The notes under the pieces were generated by a model. It made no database searches. It worked only from the letters and a program-made list of their open reading frames with translations, and was not told the DNA's origin. Below, piece by piece: positions 37,357 to 49,301 of a stretch of DNA of 64,000 nucleotides. Numbering within the stretch: the stretch's first letter is position 1; every line of letters starts with the position of its first letter. The DNA is from Pseudarthrobacter raffinosi (GTDB lineage: Bacteria > Actinomycetota > Actinomycetes > Actinomycetales > Micrococcaceae). Where the stretch lies: the NCBI RefSeq assembly GCF_023913735.1, contig NZ_JAMXBH010000001.1, positions 248,001-312,000 of the forward strand. The letters run 5' to 3'. The position numbers and the translations under genes are program-made.

Positions 37357-37948
37357 AGGCCTCGTGCCGGGCGAGCAGGTCATTACGATCACCCGCCCGC
37401 AGCCGAGGAAGCTGGTCGGCCCGGCCGCAGCCTTTATTGCCGCACCGGCCGCTGCAGCTTTTGCCAGTGCCTGGACCGTGCGGGGCGAGGCTACCCGGCT
37501 GGTGCCGGTGGCTTCCGCTGACTGGACACCCTGGATCGTCCTTGCATGCGTCTTGGCCGCTGCGTGGATATGGTTGGCATATTGCCTGCCTCGGCTCCTG
37601 CGGTGGCAGGCAACCCGGTACATCCTCACGAGCCGGCGGATTATTGCCCGCTATGGCATGGTGCGGCGCCGGGACGAGCAGGTCAACCTCGCGTCGATCC
37701 GCAACGTGACGGTCCACCAGTCGGTGCTGCAGCGCATATTGCGCTCCGGGAATATATCCTTGGAAACCGGGTACCAAGGTGTGGTGAACATCCAGGACGT
37801 CCCGGAAGCAGTGCGGTTCCGGGACTTCGTGCTGGATGCGATTGACGAACTGCCTGTGGGCGGGGACCCGGGGACTGATGAGATATCGGATTACACAGAC
37901 GAAGTGCTGCCGTGGGAGTTGAGAGAAGGTGGAGACGATGAACGATGA
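37349..37948 (+). CDS. Membrane protein with bacterial PH (bPH2) domain
   Basis: A 199-residue membrane protein. Two spans occur (about residues 24-44, AAAFIAAPAAAAFASAW, and 58-80, WIVLACVLAAAWIWLAYCLP). They are followed by a YdbS-like bacterial PH domain: RYILTSRRIIARYGMVRRRD, INLASIRNVTV-like (VNLASIRNVTV), a LRSGNISLETG strand and an acidic tail. Proteins of this type probably anchor or scaffold at the membrane, but no reaction is known. It overlaps the birA stop by 8 bases and the cyclase start by 11 bases, so the three genes form an operon. Confidence 0.85.
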   Translation: MRKGLVPGEQVITITRPQPRKLVGPAAAFIAAPAAAAFASAWTVRGEATRLVPVASADWTPWIVLACVLAAAWIWLAYCLPRLLRWQATRYILTSRRIIARYGMVRRRDEQVNLASIRNVTVHQSVLQRILRSGNISLETGYQGVVNIQDVPEAVRFRDFVLDAIDELPVGGDPGTDEISDYTDEVLPWELREGGDDER

Positions 37949-39062
37949 GGACCAGCGGGACGAAGCGGACCTGCCGGCTCCCGCCGTGCCCGAAGCCGCC
38001 CACCCGGCGACAGGCACACTCTCTCCGGAACGAGTGGCTGCCAAGGCTCTCGAGGCCCGGCTGTTGGGCGGCGAACGGAAGCTGCGGCGCCGTGAGGTGG
38101 CCGCCGGCGCAGGGCTGTCCCTCCTTTCTGCCCGTAAGCTGTGGCGTGCCCTCGGCTTCCCGAACTTCGGCGACGAAGACGTCGCCTTCACCGAACGGGA
38201 TCAGGCTGCGCTGTCCACCGTGGTTGATCTGGTCCGCACCGGGGTGCTGACCGAAGAGGCCGCCATCTCCGTGACCCGGTCCATCGGACAGATGACAGAC
38301 CGCATGGTGGTCTGGCAGATCGAGGCCCTGGTGGAGGACATGGTCCACGAGCAGGGCGTCACCGACGCTGTGGCCCGCAAGCGCCTGGTGAAGGAACTGC
38401 CCTCCCTGCTGGACGCGCTGGAGGAGATGCTGGTCTATTCGTGGCGGCGGCAGCTCAATGCCGGCGTGCAACGCCTGGCCGTGCGCGCCGAGGCCGGCCT
38501 GCAGGCCAGCGAAGAAGGCCGCGACGGGGACGAAGACGACGCCCCGCTGCCGCTGGCCCGCGCTGTCGGCTTTGCTGACCTGGTTTCGTATACGAGTCTC
38601 TCCCGCCGGATGAATGAAAAGACCCTCGCCCGGCTGGTCCAGCGCTTTGAGAACAAATGCGCCGAGATCATTTCCGTTGGCGGCGGGCGGCTGGTCAAGA
38701 CCGTAGGCGACGAAGTCCTGTATATCGCGGAAACGCCGGCTGCCGGTGCCGAGATCTCGCTGGCCCTGGCACAGGCGTTCACCGAAGACGAGATCCTGCC
38801 GGAAGCGCGGGTGGCGATGGTCTGGGGCAGGATCCTGTCCCGGCTCGGGGACATCTACGGCCCCACAGTCAACCTCGCCGCCCGGCTTACCACGTTGGCG
38901 GATCCGGGAACGGTCCTGATCGACTCCATGACTGCTTCCGCGCTGGACCAGGACAAGCGCTTCATTCTCGTTCCGCAGCCTGCTGAAAATGTCCGCGGGT
39001 TCGGCGAAATCCATCCCGTGCTTCTGGCACGCGGTCAAGGAAAAGGCCTGGTCCTCGACTAG
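37938..39062 (+). CDS. Class III adenylate/guanylate cyclase
   Basis: A 374-residue soluble class III nucleotidyl cyclase. An N-terminal helical region (about 30-190), with a helix-turn-helix-like RREVAAGAGLSLLSARKLWRAL, precedes the catalytic domain (about 205-355). The first metal aspartate is in GFADLVSYTSLS and the second in KTVGDEVLYIA. The transition-state Asn and Arg are in YGPTVNLAARLT. Nucleotide specificity is not clear. I start at the ATG at 37938 (AAGG 8 bases upstream) rather than the GTG at 37929. It ends the birA-PH-cyclase operon. The N-terminal layout is typical of pH- or ligand-responsive actinobacterial cyclases. Confidence 0.9.
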   Translation: MNDEDQRDEADLPAPAVPEAAHPATGTLSPERVAAKALEARLLGGERKLRRREVAAGAGLSLLSARKLWRALGFPNFGDEDVAFTERDQAALSTVVDLVRTGVLTEEAAISVTRSIGQMTDRMVVWQIEALVEDMVHEQGVTDAVARKRLVKELPSLLDALEEMLVYSWRRQLNAGVQRLAVRAEAGLQASEEGRDGDEDDAPLPLARAVGFADLVSYTSLSRRMNEKTLARLVQRFENKCAEIISVGGGRLVKTVGDEVLYIAETPAAGAEISLALAQAFTEDEILPEARVAMVWGRILSRLGDIYGPTVNLAARLTTLADPGTVLIDSMTASALDQDKRFILVPQPAENVRGFGEIHPVLLARGQGKGLVLD

Positions 39063-39284: not shown

Positions 39285-39383
39285 GTGACATCACTGCTGG
39301 GGAAATTCGGTCTCAAGAAGCGCCACAACAAGATCGTTACTGGCCACTGCTTCCCGTGCTGGGGCTTTTCGTCACGGGCATAG
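39285..39383 (+). pseudogene. N-terminal stub of a lost gene, probably an Fn3/Ig-like surface protein
   Basis: A 32-codon frame: VTSLLGKFGLKKRHNKIVTG followed by a short tail and TAG at 39381. The first 20 residues (basic, then heading into a would-be membrane span) look like the start of the large fibronectin type III domain proteins that, as I recall, stand before MoxR, DUF58, transglutaminase and FHA genes in related Arthrobacter genomes. After about 39341 the DNA is instead the middle of the transglutaminase gene, in another frame. The rest of this gene is gone. The family assignment is from memory of gene order and is not certain. Confidence 0.5.
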
Positions 39384-41331
39384 CTTTCAGCACCAACGCT
39401 GCCTTCCTCACCGTGGAGCGCGGCATCGATCTCACCGTCATTGCGATTGCCTGGGCCACCTTCCGCCGTGACGCGCTGCGGCGCAGCGACACGCGAAAAG
39501 TCTCAGTCAACCGTCCGCAGACCGATGCGGCCACAGCCCAGCGGGCCAAGCTCCGCCGGCTGGGCACGGCCGCTGCCGTGATCGCCGCAAACGTCGCCAT
39601 TACCGCGGTGGCGGCGCCCCTGGTCACCGCCAGCGGTGACCGCAAGGTCCTGCGCAACGTGGTGGTTCCGCCGTTCGATCCCAAGGACTACGTCACGCCC
39701 CTGGCAAGCTTCCGGACGTTCGTCAAGGACAAGAAAGACGACACCCTGTTCGTGGTCAAAGGACTGCCCCGGGACGGCCGTGTCCGGCTGGGGGCTTTGG
39801 ATGCCTTCAACGGCGCCAACTACAACATGGATCCCAACGGCTCCGGCAGCTTCAGCAAGGTGGGCGACACCGAATCCATCAACACCCTGGCCGACACCTC
39901 CGGCATCGTCCCCTCGAATGACTACTCCATCGACATCACCATCGAGGATTACCAGGGCTACTCCCGGGAGGCCGGAAGACCACCGGCCTGAGCTTTGACC
40001 AGAGCGCCTCCGCCGCGGCGTCGGGCCTGTACTTCAACGCAGGCACAGACACGGCCGTGACCACGCAGGGCCTGTCCAAGGGCGATTCCTACAGCGTCCA
40101 GGTGTCCGATCCCGTGAAGCTCGAACACGGTCAGTTGACACAGTACGACTTCGCGAAGATTACGCTGCCGGACGCCGTCGAGGTCCCGCCGGTGGTGGGG
40201 TCACAGGCCAACGACCTCTCGGCCGATGCGCCCACCGCGATTGACCGGGTCCGCCAGATCGAGGCGCATTTCCAAAAGACGGGCGCCTTCAGCAACGGCC
40301 TGGTGGCTGACGGCCAGCTGCCCAGCGTTTCCGGACACAGCTCGTCGCGGATCAGGAACCTGCTGACCGCCAAGCAGATGCTCGGCGACGACGAGCAGTA
40401 TGCCGTGTCCATGTCGCTGATGCTCCGCCACCTGGGCATCCCGTCACGCGTCGTCATGGGCTTCTACCTCGAGCCGACCAGCCCCGAGAACGGCGCCGGC
40501 GAGGTAAAGGTCACGGGCAAGGACGTCCACGCCTGGGTTGAGGTGGCCTTCGACCGGGTGGGCTGGGTCAGCTTCGACCCCACACCGCCCAAGGACAACG
40601 TCCCCATCCCGCCGGACGCCGACGAGAAGAAAAACAATCCGTGGCTCTTCTGGGGTGCCCTGCTCGGGGCCCTGGGCATTGCCCTGATCCCGCTGTCCAT
40701 CCTTGCCCTGCCGCTGCTGCTGATCGCGCTCCTTAAATCACGACGCCGGAAGGCCCGCCTCACGGAGGGGCACCCGGCCCAGCGTGTGGGCGGCGGTTGG
40801 AACGAGGTGGTGAGCCTCGCCTCGGATTTGGGCGCCGGCATCGACACCCGTGCAACCCGGCGCGAAAGCGCAGTGGTGCTTGCTGACTCGTTCCCGGCCA
40901 CCGGGCAGACCCCCACCATGCTGGCGCACCGTGCGGATGCCTCCATCTTCGGCGCCGGCCAGCCCAGCGAGGAGGAGGTCCGGGAATACTGGACCATCGT
41001 GGACGGCTCGCTGAAGGAGATGGCCGGGACTTTGGGGTTCTGGCGCCGCCAGCAGGCCCGCTTCTCGCCCCGGTCGCTGCTGGCTGATGGCCGCAACGCC
41101 CTTAAGCTGCGCGGTACCAGGCTCGGGCTGGGCCCGCTGGTGCGTCCGTCCGGCCAGGGTTCCCCCGGATGGCGGTCCGCCACCGGTAGGGTGGGGACCG
41201 GCCCGGACGGTGCCGGAACCCCGAATCCGGCAGTTCAGGACAGCGGATCCGGGACGGCGGCGGCGGCTTCCGAGCCTGATGAGTCCACCGTTATGCGGAA
41301 CCCTGGAAGGAAGAACCCCACTGACTCATGA
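39341..41331 (+). pseudogene. Transglutaminase-like (TgpA-type) membrane protein, truncated and frameshifted
   Basis: The sequence enters mid-protein at PLLPVLGLFVTGIAFS, so the N-terminal block of membrane spans is missing. Frame 1 reads to TIEDYQGY (about 39960). From GRKTTGLSFDQSASAAASG the protein continues in another frame (about 39975 on), so a non-triplet indel lies between. The second part has the transglutaminase core (residues GDDEQYAVSMSLMLRHLG, DVHAWVEVAFD, FDPTPP), a membrane span and a cytoplasmic tail. The usual nucleophile cysteine is Asp in GDDEQYA. The frame ends as ATGA overlap with the RDD/FHA gene. Not functional as read. Confidence 0.8.
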
Positions 41332-42803
41332 TGAACGAGGCCGAGCGCTGCCAGCAGTGCCAGCAACTGATCCGGGGCGGCGCCACGTTCTGTCCGGCGT
41401 GCGGTGCTCCGCTGCCCAACAGGGCGGCACGCAGCGGACGCAACGTGGACCATGCACAGCGGGCCATGAAGGAGCGTGCGGCGGCGCACGCCAGCCAGAA
41501 TCCCGGTACTATCCCGGTAGTACAAACGGCTCCAGGGGGAGGAACGGGAATGGCAGCCAATCTTGAGCTTGTTCCGGCCACGGCGGGGAAACGGCTCGGC
41601 GCAGCAGTGCTCGACTGGCTGGCCCCCATCGCGGTCCTGGTGGTGACTTTCGCCATCGGATTCGCGGGAATCACCCGCACCCAAAGCGGCGGCTTCATCA
41701 TCTATGACACCGGTTCGCTGGTGCTGTTCGGCAGCATCGGCCTGGGACTGACGCTGGTCTACCTGGCGGTCCTGGTGGGCATGGAAGGCCGGTCCGGGAA
41801 GACCCTCGGCAACCACGTCATGGGCATCCGCAGCGCTGACAAGGATGGTTACGCCCCCGGCGCCGGGGGAGTGTTCCTGCGCGGCCTCATCACCGGCGCG
41901 GGCATCATCCTGGCGCTCCTGGCCGCCGTGGCCATCGTCATTTTCAAATGGTTCGATGTGGCTGTCTTCATCCTCGGACCGCTGCTTTTGGTCGGCGCGG
42001 TGTGGGCCGTGCTGGTGGTGGTTTCCAACACCTGGGACCGCAACGGCGGGCTCCGCGGCTGGCATGACACCGTGGCCAAAACGCTGGTGTTCGACGTCAA
42101 GGACGGCCGGAACCCCATCACGTCCGGCGGCATCCAGGGCCCGTACAGTTTCGCGCCCCTGGAACTCCCGCCTGTCCAGCAGGTCGCGTCGCCTGTGGCC
42201 GGGGCCGCAAAGCCGCCCCAGGTTGTGTCCGCCCAACAGCCGCCGGTCCAACAACCCGTGCAGCCGTACGCCCCGCAGCCGTACACGGCTCAACCGTCAG
42301 CCGCGCCGCCGTCGTTCGCACCCCAGCCGGACGCGCCGCCGTCGTCCACTCCTTTCCAGCCGCATGTCCCGTACGCGGCCCCTGCCGTTCCCGCGCCGGG
42401 CGCCCAGTTCCATCCCGATGACGACCTCGACCGCACGCAGATGCGCGGCGGCGCAACGAATGCGGCGCCCGTCGCCGTGCTGCGGTTAAAGCTCGACGAC
42501 GGCCGGGACTTCCGTCTCGACCGCAACGTCCTGTTGGGCAGGAACCCCCTTGGCCAGGCGGGGGAGCAGCAGGCCCAGCTCCTGGCGGTCAGTGATCCCG
42601 GCCGCTCGATCTCCAAGACGCACCTCCACCTGCTGACCGACGGTGCCGGCATTTGGGTGACGGACCGGAACTCCACCAACGGCAGCGCCGTCACAACACC
42701 GGACGGACGGCGCACCCCACTGCAGCCGGGCGTGCCCGCTTTTGTCAGCCCGGGATCCACTGTCCACTTTGGTGACCGTTCCTTCCACCTAGGACAAGCA
42801 TGA
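41328..42803 (+). CDS. Zinc-ribbon, RDD and FHA domain membrane protein
   Basis: A 491-residue protein. Order: N-terminal zinc ribbon (CQQCQQ and CPACG, residues about 8-28); RDD membrane domain with three or four spans (about 70-250, AGKRLGAAVLDWLAPIAVLV, GKTLGNHVMGIRSAD); a Pro/Gln-rich linker (about 270-375); and a C-terminal FHA domain (about 385-485, LLGRNPLG, RSISKTHLHL, DRNSTNGS). FHA domains bind phosphothreonine. The next gene encodes a PP2C phosphatase, so the pair fits phospho-signalling at the membrane. It overlaps the transglutaminase remnant and the phosphatase gene by 4 bases each and is itself intact, unlike its neighbours on both sides. Confidence 0.87.
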   Translation: MMNEAERCQQCQQLIRGGATFCPACGAPLPNRAARSGRNVDHAQRAMKERAAAHASQNPGTIPVVQTAPGGGTGMAANLELVPATAGKRLGAAVLDWLAPIAVLVVTFAIGFAGITRTQSGGFIIYDTGSLVLFGSIGLGLTLVYLAVLVGMEGRSGKTLGNHVMGIRSADKDGYAPGAGGVFLRGLITGAGIILALLAAVAIVIFKWFDVAVFILGPLLLVGAVWAVLVVVSNTWDRNGGLRGWHDTVAKTLVFDVKDGRNPITSGGIQGPYSFAPLELPPVQQVASPVAGAAKPPQVVSAQQPPVQQPVQPYAPQPYTAQPSAAPPSFAPQPDAPPSSTPFQPHVPYAAPAVPAPGAQFHPDDDLDRTQMRGGATNAAPVAVLRLKLDDGRDFRLDRNVLLGRNPLGQAGEQQAQLLAVSDPGRSISKTHLHLLTDGAGIWVTDRNSTNGSAVTTPDGRRTPLQPGVPAFVSPGSTVHFGDRSFHLGQA

Positions 42804-43702
42804 ACTCACAGCCCGCCAGTGACCCAGCTGACGCAGACCACGGAACCGGCCTCAGCCTCAGTTACGGCTGCGGAACGGACCGCGGGCTGCGCCGGGAATT
42901 GAACGAGGATTCCTTCATCGCCTCCGACCCCGTCTTCGCCGTGGCAGACGGCATGGGCGGACACGAAGCCGGCGAGATTGCCAGCGGCATGTGTGTGCGC
43001 GCCCTGGCTGCCATGCCGCAGCTCGCTACCGGGGAGCGCAGCATCACGGCGGCAGTGCTCCAGCAATATCTGCTCCGCGCCGACAGTTCCATCCGGGAGG
43101 TGACAGGTGCCCGCGCCGGGACCACGCTCACCGGAGCCGTTGTGGTGGAACAGATGGGCATGCCGTACTGGCTGGTCATGAACATCGGGGATTCCCGCAC
43201 GTACCGGCTGAGCCAGGGGCACTTCGAGCAGGTCAGCGTGGACCATTCGGAGGTCCAGGAACTCGTGGATGCCGGTGAAATCACGCCTGAGCAGGCCACC
43301 GTCCATCCCCGCCGCCACGTTGTCACGAGGGCGCTGGGCACGGGGGACGAGACCGAGGCTGATTACTGGCTCCTGCCCGTGGAGGAAGGCGACCGGATCA
43401 TGGTCTGCTCGGACGGGCTCAACGCAGAGCTGACGGATGAGCACATGTTCCGGATCCTTAGCACCGTGGGCCATCCGCAGGACGCGGTGGATGCCCTGAT
43501 CCAGGCCGCGCTCCGCAACGGCGGAAGGGATAACGTCACCGTCATTGTGGTGGACGCCAGGAACGTGATGAACGACGGCGGCATCGCCACCACGGCGCCC
43601 CGCCCCTCCGCTGATGCCGCGGAAGAGGTCACCCTGCCCCGGGGGCGGATTGTTGACGCCAGCCGGCCGGCCGGCCGGGACGACGGAAGAGGGGAACACT
43701 GA
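42800..43702 (+). CDS. PP2C-family Ser/Thr protein phosphatase
   Basis: A 300-residue PPM/PP2C phosphatase. Metal-binding aspartates lie in FAVADGMGGHEAGE (about residue 50), VMNIGDSRTYRLS (about 130), VCSDGLNAEL (about 205) and GGRDNVTVIVVDA (about 240). It removes phosphate from Ser/Thr, most likely on the FHA partners encoded beside it. The start at 42800 overlaps the stop of the FHA gene as ATGA. No kinase gene is in the window. All motifs are intact although the following FHA-type gene is broken. Confidence 0.92.
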   Translation: MNSQPASDPADADHGTGLSLSYGCGTDRGLRRELNEDSFIASDPVFAVADGMGGHEAGEIASGMCVRALAAMPQLATGERSITAAVLQQYLLRADSSIREVTGARAGTTLTGAVVVEQMGMPYWLVMNIGDSRTYRLSQGHFEQVSVDHSEVQELVDAGEITPEQATVHPRRHVVTRALGTGDETEADYWLLPVEEGDRIMVCSDGLNAELTDEHMFRILSTVGHPQDAVDALIQAALRNGGRDNVTVIVVDARNVMNDGGIATTAPRPSADAAEEVTLPRGRIVDASRPAGRDDGRGEH

Positions 43703-43703
43703 C

Positions 43704-44794
43704 ATGGCCACCGCAACATACGCCGCGGGCACTTGGCTCGGTGTTGTCCGGGCCAACACTGTGGTCCTCCTGGGTCCCGGGACCCCCGCCTGCCCTGGTC
43801 CAGTCCCTGTGGGAACTGCTGGAGCACGCACCGGAAGCCACGAAGTGCTCCACGCCGTCACCAGCAGTTTCGGCGTTTCCCTGGCGCAGATACCGTCGTT
43901 CGGGATAGTGGATTCCGGTGACGCGCTCCGGATCTTCCTCCGCGGCGACCTGGACCTGACCGTGCAGCTGCCCGGCGGCCCGGTGGACCTGAACGGGAGG
44001 GACGTCACCACCTGGACGGAGCGCCGCCTGGACACACCCGAGTGGTACCGCCTCACTGTGGCCGGAAACGGCCAGCCCGGGCCCGCGTTGCCGCTCAGCG
44101 ATGGCGTGGTCCTGCTGGAGTCGCTGACAGTGTCGCTCACCGGAACTCCGGCGGACGAGGTGGCGGCTCCGGCTGGCCACACCCGCTGAGGTCGAGGCAC
44201 CCACCGCTGTCGGCGGCGTCGTCCTCGTAGCGGACGCTGGACCGGTCAATGAAACGGTAGCGGAGCCTGACTCTGAACCCGCGCCGGAAACTGCACCTGA
44301 GGCGGAAGCTGAGCCGGAACCTGAACTTGCACCTGAACCTGCGTCTGAACCAGCGCCGGAGCATGACCGGGAGGTCTAGGCAGAAACGGTGATGGGGCTC
44401 CTGGACGACGACTCCAATTTTGCTGCCGAAGCCCCGGAAGCCGGGCCGGACATGGAGCCCGCCCCGGAACCCACATATCCTGATCAGGTCCCGGCCCACG
44501 AAATGACCGGCAGCTACGACCACCTCTGGGAACGGACTGTTGTCCGCAGCATCGAGGACGCAGCCGTCCGGGACGAACCAGAGGAAGATCACGCCGTCCC
44601 CGCGGCACCTGTTGGCGCGTCTCCGGCACCGGTCGATGCGGCACAGGCGAACGCTCCAGGACAGCCGGAGGCAGCGGCCAGCCTGGCTCCTGCACACCCC
44701 GCCCACGAACCCGCAGGTCCACCTGCCACACCGCCTGCGGCCGCAGCGGCCGCCCGGACGATCGGCGGTCTCATCGACTCGATCCCGTGGCGGA
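43704..44794 (+). pseudogene. FHA-type protein gene, multiply frameshifted and truncated
   Basis: Reading begins MATATYAAGTWLGVVRANTV one base after the phosphatase stop. Between about 43784 and 43846 the sensible protein (PPALVQSLWELLEHAPEA) lies in another frame, so an inserted C in a CCCCC run is offset by a lost base. From about 44173 the coding continues in yet another frame (LATPAEVEAPTAVGG, then a Glu/Pro-rich linker). An in-frame TAG stands at 44377-44379. The frame then resumes (AETVMGLLDDDSN). The C-terminal FHA domain expected in this family is absent; at about 44795 the DNA becomes an FtsK-type gene. Non-functional as read. Confidence 0.75.
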
Positions 44795-45326
44795 CCGGCG
44801 GGACGGTGGCGCTGGTGACCCTGGCGTACGCGCTGCGCCGATCCAATCCGGACACGGAGTTGGTGTACATCGGCTCGCGCCGCTCCGCAGTAGCGTCGCT
44901 GCCGCTCTGGAACCGTTCGGTGGTGGGTGTGCCGATGACCTGGCTGAGATCATCGAGGACCTCACCGAACACTCCTCCGGGAACCCCGGGAAACTGAAGA
45001 TCTTCATCGAAGGCCTGACCGAGTTCACGGATACCGTTGCGGAATCGGGCGTTTCGCAGCTCGTGTCGGCCTCCATCAAGGCCGACCAGTGGGTCATCGG
45101 GGAATCGGAAACGTCAACCTGGTCCTCCGCCTGGTCCCTGGCCCAGCCCTTCAAATCCGGACGCCGGGGCCTGCTCATCAACCCGGGGGACATCGAAGGG
45201 GACAGCCTGCTCAACACGTCGCTGGGCCGGGTCAGTCCGGAGTTCATACCTGGCCGCGGCTACATCGTGGGACGCGGCAAGGCACGGAAACTGCAGATTG
45301 CCCTGCCGCCGGAAAACAGGGGCTGA
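44795..45326 (+). pseudogene. C-terminal fragment of an FtsK/EssC-type ATPase, frameshifted
   Basis: From about 44795 the sequence reads GTVALVTLAYALRRS, the helix after a Walker A site, and NPDTELVYIGSRRS in the frame of the preceding FHA remnant. At about 44925 it shifts frame and goes on with ADDLAEIIEDLTEHSSGN, KLKIFIEGLTEF (Walker B-like strand) and RKLQIALPPENRG to the stop at 45326. This is the last ATPase domain of an FtsK/SpoIIIE EssC-type protein; the Walker A, the first two ATPase domains and the N-terminus are missing. As read it could not hydrolyse ATP. Confidence 0.75.
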
Positions 45327-45448
45327 GCCGTTGCCTTCCACCGGGCCGTAAATCCAACGGATTTGCAGGCCCGTGGCGCGTTGTAGGAGACTACCGGAAA
45401 CACTGTTTCGCCGCGGAAGGGGTGCCGCGCACTGTCGAAAAGGTAACC

Positions 45449-46009
45449 ATGATCCGATCCTCATCCGTGCTCCGCGACGTTTCAGCTGCTGCGGTGGCTG
45501 CGGTGCTGGCGCTCCTGGTTGGCCTTTCTGCGGCGGCCCCGGCGCAGGCCGACGACGGCGAACCGGCACCGGGTTTGTGCATCATTAATTGTGAGCCGGG
45601 CAATCAGAAGCCCGGGCCGACGGACACCTCAACTCCATCCCCGACGCAGACGTCGGCGGCCCCCGTGATCGAGCCCCCGCCGCCGCCGCCCGTGGCGCCA
45701 GCACCGGTACCGGTTGCCACCCTCGCCCCGGAACCGAGCGTTTCGCCGACTGAGGAATCGCCGTCGGCCGCGCCCAGCACCACCATCCCCAGCCCGCCGT
45801 CGTCCGTACCCCCGTCCACGGAATCGAACTGGAACAAGCCAGTCACCAAGTCGGCCAAGCCCACACAGGCTGCCGCCGTTTCCCGGAACGACGGCTCCGG
45901 CCTCTTCGGCGGCCCCGGCCTGCTGGCCATCATGGCGGGCGTGCTGCTGGTGGGAGTCGCCGGCCTCGCCTTCGCCTGGTGGAGCCGGAACCGCCTCGCC
46001 TCACACTGA
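45449..46009 (+). CDS. Secreted, membrane-anchored Pro/Ser-rich protein
   Basis: A 186-residue exported protein. A signal peptide (AAAVAAVLALLVGLSAAAPA, cleavage near AQA) is followed by GLCIINCEPG, a pair of cysteines that could form one disulfide. A low-complexity Pro/Ser/Thr stalk occupies about residues 60-145, and a C-terminal span GLLAIMAGVLLVGVAGLAFAWW ends with a short basic tail. The layout is that of a wall-spanning stalk anchored by its C-terminus, but it lacks an LPxTG motif. AAAAGG lies 6 bases before the ATG. It follows the ATPase remnant by 122 bases and precedes a 54-bp palindrome. Confidence 0.75.
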   Translation: MIRSSSVLRDVSAAAVAAVLALLVGLSAAAPAQADDGEPAPGLCIINCEPGNQKPGPTDTSTPSPTQTSAAPVIEPPPPPPVAPAPVPVATLAPEPSVSPTEESPSAAPSTTIPSPPSSVPPSTESNWNKPVTKSAKPTQAAAVSRNDGSGLFGGPGLLAIMAGVLLVGVAGLAFAWWSRNRLASH

Positions 46010-46034
46010 CCCTGCCAGCCCCGCCCTTCCCAAC

Positions 46035-49301
<3,267 letters not shown>

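Follow-up and report, generated by a model that had tools for sequence, protein, structure and literature searches.

A probably recently inactivated envelope-protein and phospho-signalling locus in Pseudarthrobacter raffinosi with a retained PP2C phosphatase gene

The window analysed here is a stretch of 64,000 nucleotides of DNA from Pseudarthrobacter raffinosi, a soil bacterium of the Arthrobacter type, and carries the remains of a large gene cluster between an adenylate/guanylate cyclase gene and ligA (Table 1). In its full-length form the locus encodes, in this order, a giant Ig/FN3 protein, MoxR, DUF58, TgpA, a Zn-ribbon/RDD/FHA protein, a PP2C phosphatase, an FHA protein, a Ser/Thr kinase, a 234-aa protein and an EssC-like ATPase. 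The closed genome G042, with 95-97% identity across the cluster, served as the reference for the window. Compared to G042, about 9.0 kb and about 7.2 kb of the locus are missing, and the surface protein, MoxR, DUF58, TgpA, FHA protein, kinase, 234-aa protein and ATPase genes are broken or removed. The initial annotation, made from the sequence of the window alone, had listed for 39.3-45.3 kb a stub, a headless transglutaminase, RDD/FHA and PP2C genes, a frameshifted FHA-type gene and an ATPase fragment, with two large deletions, several frameshifts and a nonsense codon. Aligning the region to the intact clusters of related genomes, as it had proposed, recovered each of these elements and located the deletions and the small lesions relative to G042.

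Table 1. Features of the locus and its flanks, in window coordinates.
Feature	Position	Strand	State
Adenylate/guanylate cyclase gene, left edge	37929..39062	+	Intact
N-terminal stub of giant Ig/FN3 surface protein	39285..39383	+	Enters out-of-frame TgpA sequence past first deletion
~9.0-kb deletion junction	39338..39343	.	~3-bp microhomology
TgpA/transglutaminase remnant	39338..41331	+	Frameshift and in-frame loss
Zn-ribbon/RDD/FHA gene	41328..42803	+	Frame open; private changes mostly nonsynonymous
PP2C-type Ser/Thr phosphatase gene	42800..43702	+	Open, normal constraint; retained in cluster-less relatives
FHA-type gene, N-terminal part	43704..44803	+	+1/-1 pair, +1, in-frame TAG; FHA domain deleted
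~7.2-kb deletion junction	44797..44803	.	~3-bp microhomology
EssC-like FtsK/SpoIIIE ATPase, 3' fragment	44797..45326	+	Starts at about residue 1307 of 1481; +2 at 44927
Small gene (188 aa in G042)	45449..46009	+	Open; without family match
ligA, right edge	46090..48486	+	Intact

On the left side, the bulk of the FN3 gene is lost in the first deletion, together with MoxR, DUF58 and the TgpA N-terminus. Out of the fn3-MoxR-DUF58-tgm block the window keeps only the fn3 stub, a chimeric frame of 32 residues, and the TgpA remnant, which is without its first ~169 codons. This remnant additionally has a 4-bp frameshift at 39962, where the window differs from 14 of 14 relatives, and has lost 102 bp in frame at 40614-40622.

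On the right side, the FHA-type gene contains a compensating +1/-1 pair at 43783 and 43838, at which 14 and 13 of 14 relatives differ, respectively. Its in-frame TAG (44377-44379) is a serine codon in all 12 alignable relatives, while two of the 14 could not be aligned. Least secure among the lesions is the +1 at 44175: it is supported by 7 of 11 alignable relatives, the other four align differently in this repeat-rich stretch and three are unalignable. The second deletion takes out the FHA domain, the Ser/Thr kinase, the 234-aa gene and about 1300 residues of the ATPase, and the +2 in the remaining ATPase fragment sets the window apart from 14 of 14 relatives.

The second deletion fuses the FHA-type and ATPase coding sequences in the same frame. 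Together with the open RDD/FHA and PP2C genes and with the private changes of the ATPase fragment (6 synonymous, 2 nonsynonymous), which indicate no relaxation, this would suit a streamlined functional module in which the fused or shortened genes are in use. The would-be fusion, however, carries the stop as well as frameshifts on either side of the junction, the short arrangement is absent from all 18 relatives examined, and reduced relatives retain PP2C without the other genes; we consider such a module very improbable.

Both missing segments are kept in all nine closest relatives. As an observation that would speak against decay, the initial annotation had named relatives in which this short arrangement consists of functional genes; none of these nine has the arrangement. 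In 16 of the 18 relatives, G042 included, all ten cluster genes are open at ≥90% of the reference length; the exceptions are G030, which has a broken ligA as well, and G099 for its TgpA. The opposite direction of change, in which the relatives gained the segments and the window is ancestral, has nothing in its favour except size variation among the relatives. What the window retains of the FN3 gene is its 5' end and of the ATPase gene its 3' end, the middle of each being gone, and these gene fragments contradict a gain; moreover, 18 of the family's 32 genera have the marker gene p234. We regard this direction as having next to no chance of being correct.

The damage was said to stop at both edges of the cluster, and the comparison agrees. 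Forty predicted G042 genes find their best match (identity ≥70%) inside the window. Of these, 38 are open there, and the other two are TgpA and the ATPase, both in the cluster; open means a frame over ≥85% of the length, and stops within the first 12% were attributed to misplaced starts. Over 332 kb of the contig surveyed, three non-cluster genes are also split relative to G042, none of them with a kilobase-size internal deletion, and in the reverse survey, with genes of the window's contig compared to G042, 13 of 214 were flagged.

These three split genes, the status of the genome as a 64-contig draft of one strain, and G030 as an illustration of how error-rich deposited genomes can be, would be compatible with deletions and frameshifts that are sequencing or assembly errors. 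Against this stands the concentration of several kinds of lesions in one locus while 38 of the 40 genes are open, which had been judged unlike random error from the outset. Furthermore, the junction overlaps are just ~3 bp long, and TgpA and RDD/FHA are shifted towards nonsynonymous change. The ~9.0-kb segment is found nowhere else in the window's genome save for 70-74% matches to the MoxR part, and the ~7.2-kb kinase-ATPase segment is absent elsewhere in this genome; beyond the MoxR-part matches, the other contigs gave only one 36-bp match. Control searches worked for two of the three queries, with full-length matches at 94-96% in the control genomes G164 and G069. Scanning a genome contig collection, which may omit the window's own genome, for the junction pattern gave no match. 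On this indirect evidence, an artefact is improbable.

Two genes of the cluster are open in the window. The product of the PP2C gene matches Pfam PP2C_2 above the cut-off and scores 205 bits against NF033484, where the cut-off of 230 is not reached. The residue pairs D50-G51, D205-G206 and D244-N245 are identical in 64 of 64 sequences, and we take these conserved Asp motifs to be metal-binding. On these motifs and matches the product is predicted to be a PP2C/PPM Ser/Thr phosphatase of the Stp1 type.

Private changes on the window lineage were counted as synonymous/nonsynonymous (S/N), and dN/dS was estimated by such simple counts. G030 was left out because its frames are broken across the region, including ligA, and the row of the PH gene is not part of the results used. 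For TgpA and RDD/FHA together, S/N is 5/14 in the window and 229/137 summed over eight relatives (p = 0.003), and with PP2C and the FHA-type gene included it is 14/20 versus 349/213 (p = 0.018). PP2C alone shows 6/2 versus 48/14 (p = 1), and the flanking genes 18/1 versus 280/63. The nonsynonymous excess in TgpA and RDD/FHA gives p = 0.08 when only the four short-branch relatives are compared, and G164, whose cluster is intact, also has 3/11 in TgpA. The dN/dS check that had been suggested for the two open genes, done here by simple counts, separates them: RDD/FHA, with 1/6 and thus small numbers, looks relaxed, and PP2C, with 6/2, looks constrained. The two survivors are unlike, TgpA and RDD/FHA leaning toward amino-acid change in the window whereas PP2C does not. 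With its disabling lesions and raised nonsynonymous change, the cluster fits a pseudogene cluster under relaxed selection.

We interpret the window as carrying a large envelope-protein and phospho-signalling locus that has recently been inactivated, in which PP2C is most likely under selection of its own and RDD/FHA is probably functionless, with a probability of roughly 0.86. The best reading is still the one first proposed, in which selection on a membrane and surface phospho-signalling system was lost and the locus then decayed locally; the lesions are absent from the closest relatives. The initial annotation had offered two explanations for the surviving genes, and each seems to fit one of them: a separate role fits PP2C, which is present in 37 of 37 genomes picked as cluster-less, and decay that has just begun fits RDD/FHA, which is probably without function and open only since the decay is young. 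Two deletions with ~3-bp microhomologies, small indels and the stop codon would together have inactivated the locus, and the deletions may have arisen by end joining; a Ku gene is present in the window's genome. The locus resembles ordinary bacterial pseudogene clusters that arise by deletion at short repeats in having deletions, frameshifts and a stop within one dispensable locus.

In all 37 genomes picked as cluster-less, PP2C sits between the cyclase gene and ligA. These genomes were chosen for one weak match to the query, and this choice cannot reveal cluster-less genomes without PP2C; the sole scored genome without a query match is 68% complete, and 27 genomes were left unscored. In the aligned part the lone PP2C is stop-free before residue 254 in 37 of 37 genomes. 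The median dN/dS of 0.169 (292 of 666 pairs, those with dS < 1) indicates that the lone gene is under purifying selection. An own role of RDD/FHA was also considered and was ruled out as the leading reading, as only short pieces of this gene are left among the 37, in G132 and G162.

At least three of the 37, with sisters that bear the cluster, seem to have lost it separately. G132, G185 and G169 pair with such sisters with a support of 0.99-0.998 in a FastTree tree of flank genes, which for the three sisters used upstream flank genes only, and the DNA on both sides of the locus is 84-89% identical to the sister. The kinase-ATPase segment is missing genome-wide in the three apart from weak matches. 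Alternatively, the lone-PP2C state could have spread by homologous recombination over the shared flanks, with fewer retention events than counted. The dS of ligA suggests recombination near the locus, and in the tree of PP2C (~300 aa) G185 and G169 are placed apart from their flank-sisters, so that transfer or fast evolution is possible for these two. The PP2C of G132, in contrast, pairs with that of its sister, and the flank-gene positions, the flank identities and the RDD gene pieces in G132 and G162 likewise argue for deletion in place. Spread by recombination is an unlikely but still serious alternative.

Since members of the genus repeatedly lost the cluster and PP2C stays under purifying selection in the ones examined, an own role outside the cluster is most likely for PP2C. 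The phosphatase would probably dephosphorylate targets of other Ser/Thr kinases. On balance we favour, with some reservation, a wider reading in which the window is an intermediate of a repeated route in the genus: the PFNA/EssC-like cluster is deleted again and again, and PP2C is an unlosable core regulator of the targets of other kinases and only secondarily a cluster member. Gene decay in itself is common, and the same gene outlasting repeated losses is what distinguishes this case from ordinary pseudogene clusters. Its value is that of a natural dissection, in which repeated losses suggest the indispensable member of a kinase-phosphatase-FHA-secretion-like locus, and the testable claim follows that the phosphatase acts outside the cluster. 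We found no paper on the cluster or its loss in Arthrobacter in the open-licence literature.

By domains and gene order, the intact locus resembles the PFNA operon of Bifidobacterium. According to the accessible text on this operon, it comprises pkb2, fn3, aaa-atp/MoxR, duf58 and tgm, the five core genes being common in bifidobacteria, and certain species add prpC, a hypothetical gene and fha (PMC8430577). Common to both, as far as that text describes the operon, are a giant FN3 surface protein, MoxR, DUF58, transglutaminase, PP2C, an FHA protein and a Ser/Thr kinase, and the fn3-MoxR-DUF58-tgm order is present in the relatives G042, G040, G057 and G025 (the MoxR label comes from Pfam on the G030 orthologue). 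By the same account, the pkb2 kinase stands first in PFNA, whereas the Ser/Thr kinase of the relatives' locus lies near the end, downstream of the FHA gene, and the RDD/FHA gene, the 234-aa protein and the EssC-like ATPase go beyond PFNA. The phosphatase described as optional in this locus type in bifidobacteria, where the core is common, is here, on the contrary, the retained part.

A second likeness is to T7SSd and related type VII variants. In the accessible text of PMC11217815 these share with the locus an Ig-repeat envelope protein and an EssC-like ATPase whose N-terminus carries an FHA domain, and in some of them, as here, a Ser/Thr kinase, a phosphatase and FHA proteins occur as linked partners. 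The main text of that paper, as far as it was accessible, makes no mention of MoxR, DUF58, transglutaminase or fibronectin. The ATPase matches YukB and EccC ATPases in the PDB and stays under the NCBIfam cut-offs for EssC/EccC, with 536.7 bits against TIGR03928 (cut-off 778.4). Unlike in type VII secretion, no WXG100 gene lies inside the G042 locus; all 15 genomes searched have WXG100 matches, and both of those in G042 are far from the locus. Weak WXG100 matches were seen in the stretches around the cluster in G130 (below the cut-off) and G099 (27.5 bits, cut-off 27.3).

The gene cluster between the cyclase and ligA sides is decayed locally in the window, as the initial annotation had proposed, and the decay is real and recent. 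The damage lies in one locus: 38 of the 40 predicted genes of the closed-genome relative G042 with their best match in the window (at least 70% identity) are open there across 85% or more of their length, with TgpA and the ATPase as the remaining two. This mechanical gene set did not flag all cluster genes, and the FHA-type gene was checked separately.

In G042, which is 95-97% identical to the window across the cluster, the order is cyclase, two giant Ig/FN3 genes (2085 and 2043 aa), MoxR (labelled by Pfam on the orthologue in relative G030), DUF58, TgpA (872 aa), Zn-ribbon/RDD/FHA (491 aa), PP2C (299 aa), the FHA-type gene, Ser/Thr kinase (598 aa), a 234-aa protein, an EssC-like FtsK/SpoIIIE ATPase with an FHA domain (1481 aa), a 188-aa protein and ligA. 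Compared gene by gene, all ten cluster genes are open (stop to stop) at 90% or more of reference length in 16 of 18 relatives, G042 counted. The exceptions are G030, where ligA is broken as well, and TgpA of G099; for G058, G015, G013 and G177 the DNA fetched ends within ligA and so clips its frame. TgpA carries single frame changes in G099 and locus L207, at about residues 321 and 259, in clusters which are otherwise open, and these are either early decay or sequencing error. The window's genome has 4.58 Mb in 64 contigs, and the named relatives in the PP2C protein search, mostly Arthrobacter, Pseudarthrobacter and Paenarthrobacter, identify the host as an Arthrobacter-type actinobacterium.

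Coordinates of the features described (window positions unless a genome or locus handle is given)
Feature	Position	Remark
Window	G000:C45:248001-312000	
Stub of giant Ig/FN3 gene	39285-39383	aligns with second gene of the G042 pair; two matches also in G058 and G013
Missing segment of ~9.0 kb	39338-39343	alignment with G042
Missing segment of ~7.2 kb	44797-44803	alignment with G042
ATPase fragment	44797-45326	
Stretch with raised dS	44797-48486	ATPase fragment and ligA
Palindrome	46029-46094	near-perfect; between 188-aa gene and ligA
Tandem giant Ig/FN3 surface genes, G042	L039 7264-19810	
234-aa cluster protein	L040 10813-11517	63-94% identity across 77 genomes and 18 genera of the family; no match in Pfam or NCBIfam profile searches
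Partly reduced cluster, Arthrobacter wenxiniae AETb3-4	L250 7298-12523	
Weak WXG100-like frame	G130:C11:210919-211143	stretch around cluster
Weak WXG100-like frame	G099:C1:4907643-4907867	stretch around cluster

The two large deletions, the frameshifts and the nonsense codon of the initial annotation were all found in the alignments to relatives. Both missing segments are kept in all nine closest relatives (G042, G030, G164, G069, G116, G130, G099, G148 and G177). In the window's own genome the missing FN3 part has no match and the kinase-ATPase part a single match of 36 bases; both queries match at full length with 94-96% identity in G164 and G069. The MoxR-DUF58 part, a query without such a control, has three matches of 70-74% there, all to the MoxR end. 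At each deletion about 3 bp are common to both sides of the break. The genome encodes Ku, so end joining is available and may have made both deletions.

Each frameshift and the stop were compared with 14 relatives. In TgpA a 4-bp loss is private against 14 of 14, and a further 102 bp are lost in frame. The FHA-type gene has a first +1 that differs from 14/14 relatives, a -1 that differs from 13/14 and an in-frame TAG that differs from all 12 alignable ones; its second +1 is supported by seven of 11 alignable relatives. The ATPase fragment carries a +2, again private (14/14). A survey of 209 predicted G042 genes along 332 kb of the contig found 172 open, 26 absent or diverged and 11 flagged. 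In the five flagged genes with internal stops, these lie close to the N-terminus, a pattern that misplaced starts would give; a true split between the two genomes affects three genes beyond the cluster. The reverse survey raised raw flags on 13 of 214 genes. The background of frame differences is low, and no second spot of comparable damage was seen in the 332 kb survey.

The initial annotation took the RDD/FHA and PP2C genes to be kept either by a separate role or because decay has only begun. Counts of private synonymous/nonsynonymous changes, taken from the codons that nine genomes share (G030 excluded), lean to relaxed selection on the first and normal selection on the second. RDD/FHA has 1/6 in the window versus 92/75 summed over eight relatives (p=0.05), and together with TgpA 5/14 versus 229/137 (p=0.003). 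PP2C has 6/2 versus 48/14 (p=1) and the flank genes 18/1 versus 280/63 (p=0.22); TgpA, RDD/FHA, PP2C and the FHA-type gene combined have 14/20 versus 349/213 (p=0.018). Against four relatives with similarly short branches the contrast for TgpA and RDD is weaker (56/56, p=0.08); short branches hold more unpurged changes. TgpA in the intact cluster of G164 has 3/11, and the window's ATPase fragment 6/2. Small as they are, the counts speak for relaxed selection in TgpA and RDD/FHA and for normal selection in PP2C.

PP2C is the part spared by the losses examined, a result that goes beyond the initial annotation. Out of 206 genomes of the genus searched, 179 could be scored and 178 had a match; the sole scored genome without one is 68% complete. 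A single match was found in 37 scored genomes besides the window's own. G014 and G146 (63% complete) were removed for a strong TgpA-sequence match, and the remaining 35 with G010 and G019 from an earlier sample form a set of 37 genomes. In all 37, PP2C is present and sits between cyclase and ligA. At E<=1e-6 the fetched stretches (about 12 kb, two up to 15 kb, shorter at contig ends) lack all the other cluster genes, apart from short RDD pieces beside PP2C in G132 and G162. No stop precedes residue 254 in the aligned part of any of the 37; 35 alignments span residues 18-253 completely and two stop at 251 and 252. The dN/dS of these PP2C genes is 0.064-0.353 with a median of 0.169, computed on those pairs whose dS is below 1 (292 of 666).

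On a flank-gene tree with midpoint rooting, built from 80 genomes (37 with PP2C alone, 42 with the cluster, and the window) the cluster state changes at least eight times by Fitch parsimony. Genomes with PP2C alone are sisters of cluster-bearing ones in the pairs G132-G040 (support 0.99), G185-G057 (0.998) and G169-G025 (0.998). By DNA comparison G132 retains the former RDD gene as two pieces, and G169 has about 220 bp that match DNA just 3' of the ATPase gene in G025. In the PP2C tree, G132 groups with G040, and G185 and G169 stand apart from their flank-sisters. The 234-aa protein, used as the cluster marker p234, is found in 77 of the 197 genomes sampled and 18 of the 32 genera of the family; given this spread, loss of the cluster is a better fit than gain. 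The PP2C search led to 80 named loci: the cluster is whole in 59, PP2C stands alone in 14, and seven are in another state, of which three are contig ends and one is Hiyo4. Another of the seven, in A. wenxiniae, is a partly reduced cluster in different surroundings. It has open PP2C and FHA genes together with a C-terminal piece of TgpA, an RDD/FHA gene that is interrupted and a weak piece of the ATPase.

Judging by the domains, the cluster before decay probably encoded an envelope-spanning surface protein with a processing ATPase and a transglutaminase-like partner, probably controlled by the kinase, FHA readers and PP2C and joined by the EssC-like motor. In the window this machine can no longer be built. 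The bifidobacterial PFNA operon, as outlined in PMC8430577, matches the cluster in gene content and core order but differs in the position of the kinase, and the cluster has extra genes. The B. longum prpC gene of that operon is described there with an extra start site of its own; a similar site would make independent PP2C expression easy. The type VII secretion variants, as outlined in PMC11217815, resemble the cluster in having an ATPase with an FHA domain, a kinase, a phosphatase and an Ig protein. By analogy, the locus would work like a phospho-controlled envelope system, with membership in neither system claimed. Profile matches gave no WXG100 gene in the G042 locus. Weak WXG100-like frames lie around the cluster in G130 and G099, and both genomes have comparable weak matches elsewhere.

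At the right edge, the ATPase fragment and ligA have a dS to G042 of 0.21-0.25, against 0.04-0.14 upstream, and the window's ligA is about 60 bp longer than that of G042, with the extra DNA common to G069. The dS rise and the extra ligA DNA possibly reflect homologous recombination. The palindrome accounts for 57 of the 60 matches of a genome search, with hits in either orientation on many contigs. In G030 it is split by an insertion, which holds an IS110-family transposase gene.
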